Notes under the pieces: model-generated
Database searches by the model: none
Seen by the model: the letters and a program-made list of their open reading frames with translations, nothing else
What the model was told of the DNA's origin: nothing
Part shown: positions 26,521 through 32,640 of the stretch, in pieces
Layout: each line of letters opens with the position of its first letter
Numbering within the stretch: position 1 is the stretch's first letter
Origin: Rosistilla ulvae
GTDB taxonomy: Bacteria > Planctomycetota > Planctomycetia > Pirellulales > Pirellulaceae
Assembly: GCF_007741475.1 (NCBI RefSeq)
Contig: NZ_CP036261.1
Span: 1 to 64,000 of the forward strand
Direction of reading: 5' to 3'
DNA: 64,000 bases
Translations under genes and position numbers: made by a program

Positions 26521-27504
26521 ATGTCTGTGCAACTGCAATTGTGGGATGAGCCTGCAAAAACGCTAGCATTTCCAGAAAGGAAGGCTCAGCCGCCGGTGGA
26601 ACCACCACTGGCCGCGGGTTCTGCCGAGCTAGCTGCCGCGCCGCCAGACACCAAAACTGACGTTTTTTCCACACTGCAACGGTGTTCGAAAAACGGCGAG
26701 CAGGACGAGTGCCAGCCGCCCGCCGGCAAAGCGGACGTTTTGTCCAGCTTGCGAAAACAGCTACGCCGCGTCGAAGCGGCTCGGCGTCCCGAATCGCAAG
26801 CGATCTCTTCGGGCATCGAACCGCTGGACGCACTGCTCCCCCAAGCCGGTTATCCCCCGGGTTCATTGGTCGAATGGATCGACGTCGGGCACGCCGGCGG
26901 TGCGGCTTGGTTGTCGCTGACCGGTGCGGTCGCGGCTCATCGGCACACCGGCGGCAAGGTCGTGATCGTCGACACCGATCGGACGTTTTATCCCCCCGCC
27001 GCGATCGCTGCGGGGTTGCCATCCGATGCGATCGTGCTGCTGCAGCCCAAGTCGCGAGAAGACCTGATCTGGTCGCTCGACCAATCGCTTCGCTGTTCCG
27101 CGGTGGCGGCGGTTTGGGGGCGCGTCGGGAATCTGCAGGACAATGACGCCCGGCGGTTGCAATTGGCTGCCGAAACGGGAGCCACGTTGGGGATGCTGTT
27201 GCGGCCAGCGACAGCGATCCGGCAAACCAGCTGGGCCGAGGTCCGTTGGCAGGTCCGCGGAGTCGTCCCCCGATCGGCTGCCCCGACCTCCATCCTGACG
27301 GCGAATTCCGACCGCTTGCTGGCCGTGCGGTTGCTGCGTGCCCGCGGGGCTACTGCCGGACAGCAATTGATGCTGCAGATCGATCAACAGTCGCGAATCG
27401 TTCGCAAGGAACTGCCACGTGAATCCAAGAGTGCTCAGCATTTGGCTGCCGAATTGGCCCATCCAAAGACTGCACGCCGCCAGCAATCTGCCCGCCGGGC
27501 CTGA
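26521..27504 (+). CDS. imuA: ImuA-like SOS mutagenesis protein
   Basis: Accessory protein of the ImuA-ImuB-DnaE2 mutagenic polymerase system. It has 327 residues. A variable Pro/Ala-rich N-terminus is followed by a RecA-like core with IEPLDALLPQAGYPPGSLVEWIDVG and GGKVVIVDTDRTFYPPAAIAAGL, where a degenerate P-loop replaces a true Walker A. The next gene, a Y-family polymerase paralogue, overlaps it by 86 bp. A TGAGGGAG ribosome-binding element precedes the ATG. The identification rests mainly on the pairing with ImuB. Confidence 0.75.
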   Translation: MSVQLQLWDEPAKTLAFPERKAQPPVEPPLAAGSAELAAAPPDTKTDVFSTLQRCSKNGEQDECQPPAGKADVLSSLRKQLRRVEAARRPESQAISSGIEPLDALLPQAGYPPGSLVEWIDVGHAGGAAWLSLTGAVAAHRHTGGKVVIVDTDRTFYPPAAIAAGLPSDAIVLLQPKSREDLIWSLDQSLRCSAVAAVWGRVGNLQDNDARRLQLAAETGATLGMLLRPATAIRQTSWAEVRWQVRGVVPRSAAPTSILTANSDRLLAVRLLRARGATAGQQLMLQIDQQSRIVRKELPRESKSAQHLAAELAHPKTARRQQSARRA

Positions 27505-29122
27505 TCGCCCGCCGCTGGTCTTGATCGCTCGCGACCCTCGCCGCGGCCAGCGCGTCGTCGCCTGCTGTCGCCGCGCTGCGATGGCGGGGATCAAAGTCGA
27601 GATGTCCGGCGGCGAAGCGACTTCGTTGATCGAAGCGGCAACCGATGCGCAATCGACGACTCAACCGCACGACGCTCAAGCCGACCTCGAAGCGCTGCAG
27701 GAACTCGCCGCCGCCTGCACCGAACGCTTCAGTCCATTGGTCGGCCTGGAACCGCTGGGCCCACGCCCTTGGGCGGGCCAGCTGCTGCACATGCCGCAAG
27801 GCTTGGTGATGGACGTGACCGGGATCGGTCCGTTGTTCGATGGCGAAGAATCGCTCTGTCGCCAGATCGATGAATTTTTCCAAAGCCGCAACCTGCAGGT
27901 TCGGATCGCGCTGGCCAGCACGTTAGCCGCCGCGTGGGGTTTGGCGCGAAGCCCCGCCTCGCGTCGCAAGACCGTCAAAACAACACAACGTTATTGCATC
28001 ACCAAACCGGAAACCGAGTTCCATCACTTGGTCTCGATGCCAACCCGCGTGATGCGGTTAGAACCGGCTTGTGTCGAGACGCTGGCTCGGCTGGGGATCG
28101 AGCAATTTGGTCAATTGCTGCGGCTCCCTCGCGAAGGACTTGCCACGCGGCTAGGTGCCGATTTGATGTTGCGGATCGACCAACTGTTAGGTCGCGCCGA
28201 CGAACCGTTGCCCGTCTACCACCATCGCCCCGAAGATCATGTCAGCATCGATCTGGAGCATCCGACGCGCGACACGGAGATCTTGATCTACAGCAGTGAA
28301 CAATTAATGCAGCGGTTGGTGAAGGGACTGCGACGGCGCGGTCACGGCGCGCTACGGATCGCTTGCCGGTTTGAACTGCTGCAGCACGAAGCTGTCGAGA
28401 TGCGTTTGAGCTTATTTGCGCCGACCGCCGACGACCAACATCTCAACCGTTTATTGGCCAATCATTTCGGCCGCCAGCGGTTGCCGGCCGACGTCCATCG
28501 CGTGGCGGTCTCCGCCACGTTAACCGCTCCGCTACAGCAACGCCAACCCGACCTGATCGGCGACGCGTCGACGCATGCCAACAGCGCCCCGGCGCTAGCT
28601 AATCTGATCGACAACCTGGCGGGACGACTGGGGCGACAATCGGTGTTGGGAGTTCGAGCGACGCGGAATCCCGAACCCGAATCAGCCTACCGCACTCAAC
28701 CGTTGACTGGCCAACCGGTCGGTGAGATCGCGCGGATGCGACGCGGCGGCAGCCGATCGGCCGTTCGAAAATCATCCCGTTCGACGAAGCCGCGAGGATT
28801 TTTTAACGAGCAATCCGACAGCGAAAGCTTTGTCCCCTCGCCGCACGACCCGCTGCGGCGACCGATCCAATTGTTGAAAGAACCGATCGAACTGACGGTC
28901 CTCAAGATCGAGCGGGGGACGCCGCCGATGCTGTTCGGATACCGCGATCGCCAATTGCAGACGCATCGTTTTTGGGGCCCCGAGCGAATCGAGACAGCTT
29001 GGTGGAGCGGATCGATGATCCGCCGCGATTACTTCCGCATCGAGACCAATCAAGGCGATTGGTTGTGGGTCTATCGCAAACTGACGACCAGCCAGTGGTA
29101 TCTGCACGGACTGTTTGGTTGA
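27419..29122 (+). CDS. imuB: ImuB-like Y-family DNA polymerase paralogue
   Basis: Partner of ImuA in translesion synthesis. The 567-residue protein starts at GTG 27419 with VLSIWLPNWPIQRLHA, the ImuB N-terminus. The palm segment reads GLVMDVTGIGPLFDG, and a helix-hairpin-helix-like LARLGIEQFGQLLRLPREGLATRLG and little-finger region follow. The first catalytic aspartate of active Y-family polymerases is missing from the N-terminal strand, as known for ImuB proteins, so it is probably a catalytically inactive adaptor. No dnaE2 lies next to it. Confidence 0.85.
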   Translation: MNPRVLSIWLPNWPIQRLHAASNLPAGPDRPPLVLIARDPRRGQRVVACCRRAAMAGIKVEMSGGEATSLIEAATDAQSTTQPHDAQADLEALQELAAACTERFSPLVGLEPLGPRPWAGQLLHMPQGLVMDVTGIGPLFDGEESLCRQIDEFFQSRNLQVRIALASTLAAAWGLARSPASRRKTVKTTQRYCITKPETEFHHLVSMPTRVMRLEPACVETLARLGIEQFGQLLRLPREGLATRLGADLMLRIDQLLGRADEPLPVYHHRPEDHVSIDLEHPTRDTEILIYSSEQLMQRLVKGLRRRGHGALRIACRFELLQHEAVEMRLSLFAPTADDQHLNRLLANHFGRQRLPADVHRVAVSATLTAPLQQRQPDLIGDASTHANSAPALANLIDNLAGRLGRQSVLGVRATRNPEPESAYRTQPLTGQPVGEIARMRRGGSRSAVRKSSRSTKPRGFFNEQSDSESFVPSPHDPLRRPIQLLKEPIELTVLKIERGTPPMLFGYRDRQLQTHRFWGPERIETAWWSGSMIRRDYFRIETNQGDWLWVYRKLTTSQWYLHGLFG

Positions 29123-29611
29123 TTGAAGAGGCCGCCGACGCTGCTTCAGTCGCAAAGCGACGACATGCGACAGCCTGGGACGCAAGTTCGCGCTTCACTC
29201 GCCCGGCGAAGCCAGGGAGGGTCGAGAAACGAGCGTTTAGCGACGTTTTTCGGGGAGGGCCTTCCGCTGGTTCGAGACGCTTGGAATTCCCCGCGGACTC
29301 CCCTCCCCGAACCTCGCTGCGCTGGTTCGACCCTCCCTACTAAACTGCGTTTTGGGAGGGTGAAGTGATGTGTTGCTCCTGCTTCACTCAAAAAACGGCG
29401 AGAACGCTTCGATCTGAGTAAGCTAGGGGTTTGCTAGCAAAACTTGGTTTATAGAAAAGACTTCGATCGATTGGACTTGCCTTTGCAGGTCAGGTACGGA
29501 CAATAGCCTGTCGTTGAACCTCAAGAACCCTCGGTTTCATTCCGCTGCGACGACTCTGGGCGATGTGAAACCTAACCACCTGCCTTTCCGATACCAAGGA
29601 GTATCTACCCG
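29123..29611. other. Gene-free spacer with palindromic element before cyclophilin
   Basis: No convincing gene. The small frames here do not look coding. The main feature is the nested inverted repeat listed separately at 29214-29338. The final 30 bp before the cyclophilin ATG hold a CAAGGAG ribosome-binding element. Confidence 0.6.
29214..29338. repeat. Nested palindromic element, 125 bp
   Basis: The outer 12-bp arms are perfect (29214-29225 and 29327-29338). A second perfect 10-bp pair lies inside (29250-29259 and 29301-29310). The sequence between is partly GA-rich, then CT-rich, and could fold as a long hairpin. Its organisation is like the 24347-24491 element although the sequence differs. 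Confidence 0.72.
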
Positions 29612-30178
29612 ATGCGAAATTTCGCTGCGATGCTTGCCGTAACACTGTTGGCCACCGCCACGCTGAGCGCTGCCAATCCTGTTGTTGTCGATATGAAGAC
29701 CTCGATGGGGCCGATCCAGATCGAGATGTATCCCGACAAAGCTCCCGAGACCGTTAAGAACTTTGTTAACTACGCTAACAAAGGCTTCTACGACGGCACG
29801 ATCTTCCATCGCGTGATCGATGGGTTCATGATCCAAGGCGGTGGATTCACGCCCAACATGCAAGAGAAAGAGACCGGCGCGATGATTCAAAACGAATCGG
29901 CCAACGGACTCAAGAACGAAAAGTACACGATCGCCATGGCGCGGACTCCGAATCCTCACAGCGCGACCAGCCAGTTCTTCATCAACACCGGCACTGACAA
30001 CGGTTTCTTGGACCGGGCCAACGCTCGCGATGGTTTTGGGTATTGCGTGTTTGGCAAAGTAACCAAGGGAACCGAAATCGTCGACGCGATCGGCAAAGTT
30101 GCGACCGGAAACGTTGGCCCTCACGGCGACGTCCCACGCACTCCCGTGATCATCGAAAAGGTCACGATCGCTCAATAA
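29612..30178 (+). CDS. Exported cyclophilin-type peptidyl-prolyl isomerase
   Basis: Catalyses cis-trans isomerisation of proline bonds during folding of exported proteins. The signal peptide ends LSAAN. The mature domain shows APETVKNFVNYANKGFYDGTIFHRVIDGFMIQGG, then MARTPNPHSATSQFFIN and GYCVFGKVTKGTEIVDAI: the single-domain cyclophilin core with the catalytic Arg in FHRVI. At 188 residues it matches the bacterial periplasmic form. A hairpin follows the stop. Confidence 0.93.
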   Translation: MRNFAAMLAVTLLATATLSAANPVVVDMKTSMGPIQIEMYPDKAPETVKNFVNYANKGFYDGTIFHRVIDGFMIQGGGFTPNMQEKETGAMIQNESANGLKNEKYTIAMARTPNPHSATSQFFINTGTDNGFLDRANARDGFGYCVFGKVTKGTEIVDAIGKVATGNVGPHGDVPRTPVIIEKVTIAQ

Positions 30179-30241: not shown

Positions 30242-30400
30242 ACTTTGGGTTCCAACAGACGATCGAGAGCCGACCCATCTCTGTCGCGATCCTTATCGCG
30301 ACGCGAACCGCTGGAGTCACAGGCTTCACCGATCTTTCTCACGATGACGTCGATCATCGAATGAAGCCATTGCCGGCGGGGTCGCATTATCGCAACGCGG

Positions 30401-31352
30401 TGTTCTTTGGGTGCCACTGGCTCTGCCAGTGCTCCTCGACCGAAGCAACTCCATCGGTTCGATCAACAGCCGGCAAAGGCTTCTAAAACGGATGGGTTGC
30501 CAGTAGTGGAGCCGACGCATTGAAGCGTGTTGTGAACGGATCATCCAAGGAGCAGATGCGATCATCAACCGGCTTGAGATCGGCACGTTTGTCGATTCAT
30601 TCCGCTTCCACAGTTTCGCTCCAAGAGCACTGGCAGTGCCAGTGGCACACAACCGAGAGCAGATATCTGCATGTGCGACCCTGCCGGACCGAATGTTCTT
30701 TGAGTGCCACTGGCTCTGCCAGTGCTCCTCGACGGAGAGCTGATATCTGCAGATGCGACCCTGCCGGACCGAATAGTCTTTGAGTGCCACTGGCTCTGCC
30801 AGTGCCCCTCGACGGAGAGCTGATATCTGCAGGTACGACCCTGCCGGACCAAATGCTCTTTGAGTGCCACTGGCTCTGCCAGTGCTCCTCGACCGAAGCC
30901 CCCAAAGGTTCGAACTGCCAACGGTGCTTCCAATGGCTAGCATCGGATGAAGCAACTCCATCGGTTCGATCAACAGCCGGCAAAGGCTTCTAAAACGGAT
31001 GGGTTGCCAGTTGTCGAGCCGCCGCTTTGAAGCGTGTTGTGAACGGATTATCCAAAGGGCAGATGCGATTATCAACGGGCTATCGCAACCGGCTTGAGAT
31101 CGGCACGTTTGTCGATTCATTCCGCTTCGGCAGTTTCGATCCAAGAGCACTGGCAGAGCCAGTGGCACACGACCGAGAGCTGATATCTGCATGTGCGACC
31201 CTGCCGGACCGAATGTTCTTTGAGTGCCACTGGCTCTGCCAGTGCTCCTCGACCGAAGCCCCTAAAGGTTCGAACTGCCAACGGCGCTTCCAATGGCTAG
31301 CATCGGATGAAGCAGCTTCATCCGTTCGATCAACAGCCGTCGAAGGCTTCGA
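30401..31352. repeat. Compound repeat array with 80-bp tandem units
   Basis: The array contains tandem 80-bp units whose first bases fall at 30701, 30781 and 30861. Each starts with TGAGTGCCACTGGCTCTGCC, a sequence with a 7-bp stem and 3-base loop. A larger unit is duplicated: copy A runs from 30445 and copy B from 30952, each starting with GCAACTCCATCGGTTCG. A third partial copy starts at 31312. The A copy is longer because it holds two extra 80-bp units, partly offset by a 13-bp insertion in B. Copies of the short palindrome also occur in reverse orientation at about 30625 and 31145. Long frames through the array are repeat translations, not genes. Confidence 0.85.
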
Positions 31353-31356
31353 ATCG

Positions 31357-32640
31357 TTAGGCGAGCGAACGCTTTAAGACTTCCATCGTTTCGGCTTGCC
31401 GTTGTTCGACGACTTTGCGAGCCGCGGCGGCCCGTTGCTTGGCCTTGTCGGGATTTTGAGCCATCTCTAGGACCGCCGGGACGATCTTCGGCATGTCGGC
31501 GGGGTTGTCGAGATCGAACAGCCAATCTCCCAGCCCGATGTCTTCCCACATGTAGCCCTTGGACGTCTGTTCGGCCCAGCGGCAGACGATCGCTGGGATG
31601 CCGTGGCCGATGCACATGATCGGTGAATGCATCTCGTTGCCAAACAGCCCCGCACTTTGCACATACGTGCTGACCGCTTCGCCCGTCAACCAGTAGTTCG
31701 GCCGCCAAACGACACGTTTGCGGATCTCCGCCGGCAGCGGATCGACTAACAATTCTTTGCCGACTTTCATCTGCGTTTGATCTTCGGGACAGACCAAGAC
31801 TTTCAGATCGGTCGTCTTCACCACTTCGACGATCGCTCGACGCAGCTGCGCATGATCGTGCTCTTTCATCGCTTCGTTCCGCGCGTGTTTCACCTCGTCG
31901 AACGGGCGATCCTTGATCGTCCAATAGGGCGTGTAACGCAGCCGCGGAATGCAGCACAGGAACTTGCCCGGTTGCAGATCGTTGGCTTTTAAGAAGGCGT
32001 TCGCTTTTTCCGGTTCCCGCAGATCGCAAGCAAACGCGCCGTCGGGACCAAATTCCATGATCTTCGATTGGCAACCCTTTTCTTTGGCCAGAGCCAGCGA
32101 ATGCGAATCGCGGAAGAAAACAAACTCGGCACCGCTCAGCACCTCGATCGTCTTCGCCATCGCAGGTTCCGTCGTCGGTTTCGTGGAAGCCGATCCCTTC
32201 GACGGTAGCGTGATTCCATAGACGCCGTAGGGCTTTTGAGTCTCATCGCGCCAACGAATCACATCTTTTTGTGCAACCAACGAAGGTCCCGAACCGTGCA
32301 ACAGAAACTCACACTCTTCAAAAGCCTGCTTCCGCTGGGCAGCGGTTTTGATGATCTTCAGCTTCGGAAACTCCGCCCGCAGCAACTCTTCGACTCCATT
32401 GTCGACGCGGCTAGGCCACAGTGTGATCTCCGCGTCGGGCATGTGAGTCCGCAGGATTTGCAGCACACCGGGCGTGTGAGCGATGTCGCCGATGTTGACC
32501 GTTTGCCAAGACGATCGCAGCAGGATCTTTTTCTTGGCGTTTGTCGGTGCCGCGGAATCGTCGGCAGCCATCGCCGCACCCGCTGTCGCGAGCCCCAGCA
32601 TGGCCAGGGCGTCGCGACGATTGAAGAGGTTATTATTCAT
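31357..32640 (-). CDS. Polysaccharide pyruvyl transferase-like protein, Tat-type signal
   Basis: A 427-residue protein with an N-terminal [18 protein letters not shown], a twin-arginine-like signal. The mature part has a GT-like fold pattern for the pyruvyl transferase family: [43 protein letters not shown] and a C-terminal [23 protein letters not shown] Tat-exported member of this family is unusual, since most act in the cytoplasm on donor-linked sugars. The stop lies five bases beyond the end of the repeat array. The sialidase-like gene is 36 bp upstream on the same strand, so they are probably cotranscribed. Confidence 0.7.

Follow-up and report, generated by a model that had tools for sequence, protein, structure and literature searches.

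A hairpin array in Rosistilla ulvae is probably a cluster of gene-less REP/REPIN-like elements derived from a planctomycete RAYT

Introduction

REP, BIME and REPIN sequences and the RAYT transposase (TnpAREP) associated with them have been described in E. coli, Pseudomonas and Stenotrophomonas (PMC2817692; PMC3733652; PMC8266576). As set out in PMC3733652, REPs occur chiefly in gamma- and alphaproteobacteria and mostly carry a GTAG or CGTC tag, with some reports from planctomycetes; tags in some GTAG families are degenerate and include GTGG, and several GTAG families are present in the planctomycete R. baltica. In the TnpAY1 classification of PMC6006769, W94, Q95 and R104 are well conserved in subclasses 2.2, 2.4, 2.5 and 2.7, and subclasses 2.1 and 2.3 are listed there without REPs. 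In one system, altering the tag has been reported to move cleavage to a different dinucleotide (PMC8266576).

Here we describe an intergenic array of hairpins in the planctomycete Rosistilla ulvae. Like the REP/RAYT systems, it is built on a palindrome with an unpaired 5′ tag that occurs in inverted dimers and clusters, and a RAYT gene bordered by the same palindromes is present in the genome; core and transposase diversify together, and the catalytic HUH motif and Tyr are retained. Unlike those systems, the family keeps a CAC[T/G]G foot, and the counterpart of E. coli R104 is not conserved. We estimate at roughly 0.85 the probability that the array consists of clustered, non-autonomous REP/REPIN-like elements that bear a GTG[C/G] tag and descend from RAYT elements that lost their gene.

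Results

The window analysed here is a stretch of 64,000 nucleotides at the start of contig NZ_CP036261.1, and the array occupies its positions 30401–31352. It is intergenic and flanked by convergent genes, a cyclophilin-type peptidyl-prolyl isomerase gene on the left (29612–30178, plus strand; PF00160) and a gene with a polysaccharide pyruvyl transferase domain on the right (31357–32640, minus strand; PF04230). A sequence-only reading of this DNA had reported units spaced 80 bp apart and a larger unit recurring at offsets of 507 and 360 bp, the 147-bp difference being equal to two 80-bp units minus a 13-nt insertion. Both observations were borne out. TRF run on the window returned a tandem repeat of period 80 at 30655–30893 (3.0 copies, 92% matches), and self-comparison aligned 30442–30740 with 30949–31259 at 91% over 312 columns and matched a third, truncated copy of the larger unit over 31309–31350; the second copy carries the 13-nt insertion near 31080. 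That reading had counted the tandem units and had missed the presence of seven hairpins in two orientations as well as the copies elsewhere in the genome.

Pattern search placed seven 21-nt hairpins of the form GTGC-CACTGGC-NNN-GCCAGTG in the array, five on the plus strand and two on the minus strand. The first (30411–30431, plus) shows the GTGC tag, the stem CACTGGC/GCCAGTG and a TCT loop; the second (30628–30648, minus) has an ACT loop and one mismatch. These are followed by three plus-strand copies (30704–30724, 30784–30804 and 30864–30884), a minus-strand copy (31148–31168) and a final plus-strand copy (31224–31244). Three elements were assigned, all on the minus strand. Element A (30411–30648, 238 bp) has two outward-tagged hairpins and is without the segment found at the inner right end of element B; element B (30864–31168, 305 bp) is collinear with an element at C1:505999–506386 that holds a remnant of a RAYT gene, the gene being absent from B; element C (31224–31350, from self-comparison) is a truncated copy of the right end that stops just short of the neighbouring gene. 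The REPIN layout, two inverted REPs as a unit, is thus present in elements A and B. From the sequence and the hairpin positions, a 55-bp spacer joins element A to the first 80-bp unit (30649–30703), and a second copy of this spacer joins element B to element C (31169–31223). DNA folding of five single hairpins gave the expected stem with z-scores of −0.8 to −3.0 only, and folding energy is therefore not used as an argument here. Assembly collapse of the array appears unlikely, since the genome is a single 7.48-Mb contig and the divergence between repeat copies is about 8–13%.

Two 80-bp units (30704–30863, plus strand), each made of a hairpin, 9 nt and the spacer, resemble the 360-bp unit minus 280 bp. 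In the unit on which this comparison was made (30784–30863), roughly the first 33 positions match the beginning of the 360-bp unit and the rest matches its end. The junction lies within a CGACCGA direct repeat (CGACGGA in the unit), of which the left partner is at 30890–30896 and the right partner, 280 bp downstream, at 31170–31176 (both plus strand); 360 − 280 = 80. Short palindromes at regular spacing are also what CRISPR repeats or an integron attC array would present, but the spacers here are copies of each other and the hairpins lie in both orientations, and we regard such an origin as scarcely credible.

The neighbourhood had previously been called an exopolysaccharide locus, a description that we could not sustain: it derives from the single pyruvyl transferase domain, and no glycosyltransferase family was found among the 17 window frames tested. 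The other frames encode RecA, AlaS, trypsin/PDZ proteases, LigT, the cyclophilin, sulfatase and BNR/FG-GAP proteins and the like, or match no family. Two further features of the window were observed on the left side of the array. At 26521–29122, ImuA-like and Y-family polymerase-like genes are adjacent, with matches under the curated cut-offs, and a 186-bp segment upstream of the cyclophilin gene (29192–29377) is single here and present in about three adjoining copies in both same-genus genomes compared (G001 and G002).

A genome-wide search, the check that the sequence-only reading had proposed, was run with the 21-mer GTGCCACTGGCTCTGCCAGTG and gave 80 matches at ≤2 mismatches in the 7.48-Mb genome; the reversed control gave 0. 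A degenerate form of the hairpin gave 125 matches at ≤1 mismatch, again with 0 for the reversed control, a copy number in keeping with REP palindromes (20–40 bp, many copies), and the alternating orientations correspond to BIME-like inverted dimers and clusters. The 80 matches fall into 14 places including the window, mostly clusters with a period of their own: 80 bp in the window, about 84 bp in L014, about 150 bp in L011 and L021, and about 114 bp in part of L022. One of the 14 (L018) lies inside a 1666-codon open frame and is probably unrelated to the family; long stop-to-stop frames also overlap several of the hairpin arrays outside the window. Every period in L011, L014, L021 and part of L022 was observed to pair a single CACTGGC hairpin with a single CACGGGC hairpin facing the other way. 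When the hairpins were masked and the 14 loci compared, sequence in common at E 1e-4 was found only between the window array and L010, the locus of the RAYT remnant. At the remaining loci the spacers are unrelated, which suggests that every array expanded at its own site.

Base composition and stem pairing were determined on 128 oriented copies from the 14 places. G stands two bases before the tag in 98% of the copies, the flanks being otherwise loose. At the fourth position of the tag, 81% of the copies have C and 19% have G. Pair 7-17 of the stem is formed by T-A in 75 copies and by G-C in 42, and it is Watson-Crick in 91% of the copies against 51% expected under independence; the switch between T-A and G-C is a compensatory change. 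A stem conserved with compensation, between convergent genes in the window, is what one would also expect of a regulatory RNA or terminator hairpin under selection. This explanation is very unlikely given that an Rfam scan of the window at gathering thresholds returned zero matches and that a terminator scan of the window called three terminator-like sites (shuffle mean 2.3), none of them any of the seven hairpins. The occurrence of the hairpin in both orientations and in arrays, and its absence from the site in two congeners, also speak against it.

We then turn to the transposase. PF01797 has seven matches in the genome, and one of them (C1:764505–764720) falls in the gap within L011, the largest of the hairpin clusters, which has 26 oriented copies. 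The open frame at this position (C1:764301–765026, 241 codons), in which translation probably begins near residue 38, scored 81.7 bits against NF047646, the REP-associated tyrosine transposase model (cut-off 80), 26.4 bits against PF01797 (cut-off 23) and 23.1 bits against the IS200 model NF033573 (cut-off 55). A profile built from ten members of its clade matched E. coli TnpAREP (4er8) at 5e-8, and in the ten-sequence alignment H66, H68, Y146, N150 and P151 are invariant, comprising the HUH motif, the catalytic Tyr and the Y---NP signature. By protein search, the sole other match of the intact RAYT in the genome at E 1e-10 is a 41-residue remnant (506160–506282) with inverted hairpins on either side, at 505999 and at 506366; both places of the clade in this genome (2/2) are thus flanked by hairpins. 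At five other Y1_Tnp loci of the genome, among the matches listed, the hairpin was absent at ≤2 mismatches within about 1.5–2 kb on each side. The best Y1_Tnp match of the genome (G000:C1:1051840–1052184) was seen to have an in-frame TGA.

Element B and the element that holds the remnant align from one end to the other when B is taken in minus-strand orientation. With the hairpins left out, the score of the right-end interior was matched by 0/2000 mononucleotide shuffles and that of the left-end interior by 9/2000, a modest homology; the score of the middle was matched by 528/2000 shuffles and is not above chance. A genome search with the right end, hairpin included, gave 82% identity over 98 bp (E 3e-19), and hairpin-masked BLAST gave 79% over 67 nt (E 7e-9). 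We therefore interpret the window element, as the best reading, as a former RAYT element that is now without its gene.

Among 40 genomes including that of R. ulvae, 12 have the hairpin at ≤1 mismatch (11 of the 39 relatives) and 12 have the RAYT clade at E ≤1e-10, the two sets not being the same. Seven of the 24 RAYT matches have hairpins with this foot on both sides: two in R. ulvae itself, one in G015, three in G019, each with a different hairpin core, and one in G033. Another three are partial, with a hairpin on one side in G020, an inverted pair on one side only in G038 and a single copy about 0.7 kb away in G032. The remaining 14, mostly more distant in sequence, have no such hairpin or only poor pattern matches, five of these loci having been scanned with the fixed pattern alone.

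A wider search gave 228 loci, of which 80 were kept as clade loci; flanks of 150 nt or more on both sides were available at 74 of these. Outward-tagged hairpins were found on both sides at 34 of the 74, on one side at 20 and on neither side at 20. Controls displaced by 1400 bp gave 0/69 and 0/63 for both sides and 3 and 1 for one side, and other Y1_Tnp loci gave 0/24 for both sides and a single locus for one side (L050), which is the clade gene of L072 with another hairpin core. At ≤2 mismatches the hairpin was also found at 0/45 Y1_Tnp loci (L023–L067), a set that comprises the best loci of many relatives together with those of G000, G001 and G002, counts a few places twice and includes L050. 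Nearly all hosts of the clade loci are planctomycetes; the few others include a Desulfomonile bin (L150), which may reflect contamination.

The same evidence bears on a purely local origin, in which tandem duplication by hairpin slippage would have built the array with no mobile element. This would account for the derivation of the 80-bp unit by removal of 280 bp between CGACCGA repeats and for the unrelated spacers of the other loci, but the hairpin recurs at 13 further places in the genome (one doubtful) and in relatives, and it is tied to a RAYT clade. We consider a purely local origin improbable. The earlier proposal of slippage or recombination at a hairpin-forming repeat stands for the local copy number, where the CGACCGA junction agrees with it as the last step, and is contradicted for the origin of the hairpin, which belongs to a genome-wide family. 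Descent from RAYT elements is the reading we follow below.

A scan blind to the tag (CAC...GTG stem only, run without a control) placed hairpins at 63 of the 80 clade loci and none at 17/80. The outer tetranucleotide was GTGC in 70/110 hairpins and GTGG in 15/110, in place of the GTAG of known REP/RAYT systems, and GTGC or GTGG stood at the inner position in 20/110. The base two before the GTGS tag was G in 81/85, and the core was identical on both sides at all 47 two-sided loci (47/47). We mapped core type on a RAYT tree of 89 sequences, made by a quick method (15/84 inner branches starred), with 70 rows labelled by core; the RAYT of R. ulvae was labelled CACGGG, the commoner of the types close to it, although both types surround the gene. 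Core type changed 7 times on the tree against a shuffled mean of 20.8, and 0/200 shuffles were as low, a result that co-inheritance of a linked gene and hairpin also explains, with near-copies contributing. The residues expected to contact the guide in a RAYT are W94, Q95, E/D100 and R104. The pattern W..DRN was found in 85/89 clade rows and WQ in 83/85 of these; at the counterpart of E. coli R104, its position taken from the alignment, R occurs in only 6/85. Tag and guide residue may be linked in this clade.

In two relatives, G001 and G008, the search at E 1e-10 found no clade RAYT although they have 43 and 54 hairpins respectively, so hairpins can persist or spread without the RAYT, or the RAYT has been lost. 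In G008, inverted hairpin pairs at a constant offset of 101 bp were observed on about ten contigs (for instance C65:59146 and C65:59247). Such outward pairs at a fixed distance, in a genome where the RAYT clade was not found, would suit a MITE derived from a DDE-type transposon, its terminal inverted repeats being palindromic by chance. Set against this, a 5′-tagged palindrome that borders HUH/Y1 genes on both sides at 34/74 loci is the REP layout, and we judge a MITE to be even less likely than a regulatory hairpin.

The corresponding sites were located in the two same-genus genomes. In place of 30353–31351, G002 has 119 bp, and in place of 30286–31354, G001 has 2.4 kb with a 735-codon open frame; the hairpin is absent from both at ≤3 mismatches. 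The suggestion that the site varies between strains is thus upheld at the level of species, both congeners lacking the array. Neither an excision product nor a precise empty site was seen at the array site, where G002 has 119 other bases. The RAYT site in G001, anchored on both sides, is 1.1 kb with neither hairpin nor RAYT, and in G002, where the right anchor alone was found, the 2.6 kb to its left have no hairpin and no RAYT. Array and RAYT locus thus represent either gains in the R. ulvae lineage or losses in the other two. By eye, the 735-codon gene of G001 (L098, 2629–4836, minus strand) is like a secreted glycoside hydrolase, and the RAYT-cluster site of G001 (L182, 400–1505) holds an acetyltransferase-like gene accompanied by a small one, the two perhaps forming a toxin-antitoxin pair.

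Discussion

In copy number, architecture and associated transposase, the hairpin family agrees with the REP/RAYT systems. Its tag departs from the canonical GT[AG]G, which GTGG alone would fit, and the activity of the enzyme is predicted from its anatomy. As far as the sequences allow, the elements have very probably spread with the aid of a dedicated single-strand transposase encoded elsewhere in the genome, an enzyme that many related planctomycetes also encode. A full element would be an inverted pair of hairpins with GTG[C/G] tags facing outward, derived from a RAYT-bearing element after loss of the gene. The RAYT at C1:764301–765026, or a relative of it, would bind hairpin and tag in single-stranded form, cleave next to the hairpin and move or copy the element. 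In the order of events that we infer, an element would have landed between the cyclophilin and pyruvyl transferase-domain genes, and slippage or recombination at the similar palindromes and the CGACCGA repeats would have duplicated the 360-bp unit and shortened some units to 80 bp.

A broader proposal, which we offer tentatively and hold at somewhat below even odds, is that planctomycetes (Planctomycetia and Phycisphaerae) have a distinct RAYT clade that is guided by GTGC instead of GTAG, cuts at dinucleotides other than the known CT/CA and is still making gene-less elements that seed species-specific arrays between genes. Under the guide rule described for Marinomonas (PMC8266576), a GTGC tag would lead to cuts at GC or GA. 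The 85/110 flanking hairpins with a GTG[C/G] tag, together with cores that follow the tree, offer a natural series in which to study how the cut is chosen by guide and stem. The origin of REPINs from RAYT elements is also directly testable here, because an intact RAYT, a decayed RAYT and gene-less derivatives share one genome. A literature search with the letters of the hairpin gave no match on bacterial repeats among the titles examined, and the literature on REPs, RAYTs and planctomycetes, judged mostly from listings, gave no description of the family; the words RAYT, REP-associated and transposase are absent from PMC11588811. An earlier record of a related repeat may exist, given the GTAG families reported from R. 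baltica in PMC3733652.

Like the present system, TIRtrons/TIRYT, of TnpAY1 subclass 2.1 (PMC3733652; PMC6006769), have a RAYT-like gene bordered by inverted repeats and an SS-motif tail, but the borders here are palindromic high-copy hairpins, whereas most TIRs of subclass 2.1 have the motif GGGGWSAS in common. The nearest listed subclass, judged by motif alone, is 2.6 (Bertels group 5, Bacteroidetes; PMC6006769), which shares WQ, YIHxNP and SS with the present clade; both have non-canonical hairpins, although the hairpin here is regular and GTGS-tagged. The HuH-to-Tyr spacing is 77 here and 82 as reported for subclass 2.6, the two figures perhaps being counted differently (PMC6006769). Elements of the IS200/IS605 family also combine a Y1 HUH transposase with subterminal hairpins and the logic of a guide tetranucleotide (PMC6006769; PMC8266576); by contrast, the present clade has the class-2 Y---NP signature and is represented in the R. 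ulvae genome by one intact copy and one remnant. Among the relatives, contig C1 of G030 has six Y1_Tnp copies with identical scores, a set that looks like a recently active IS200-type element.
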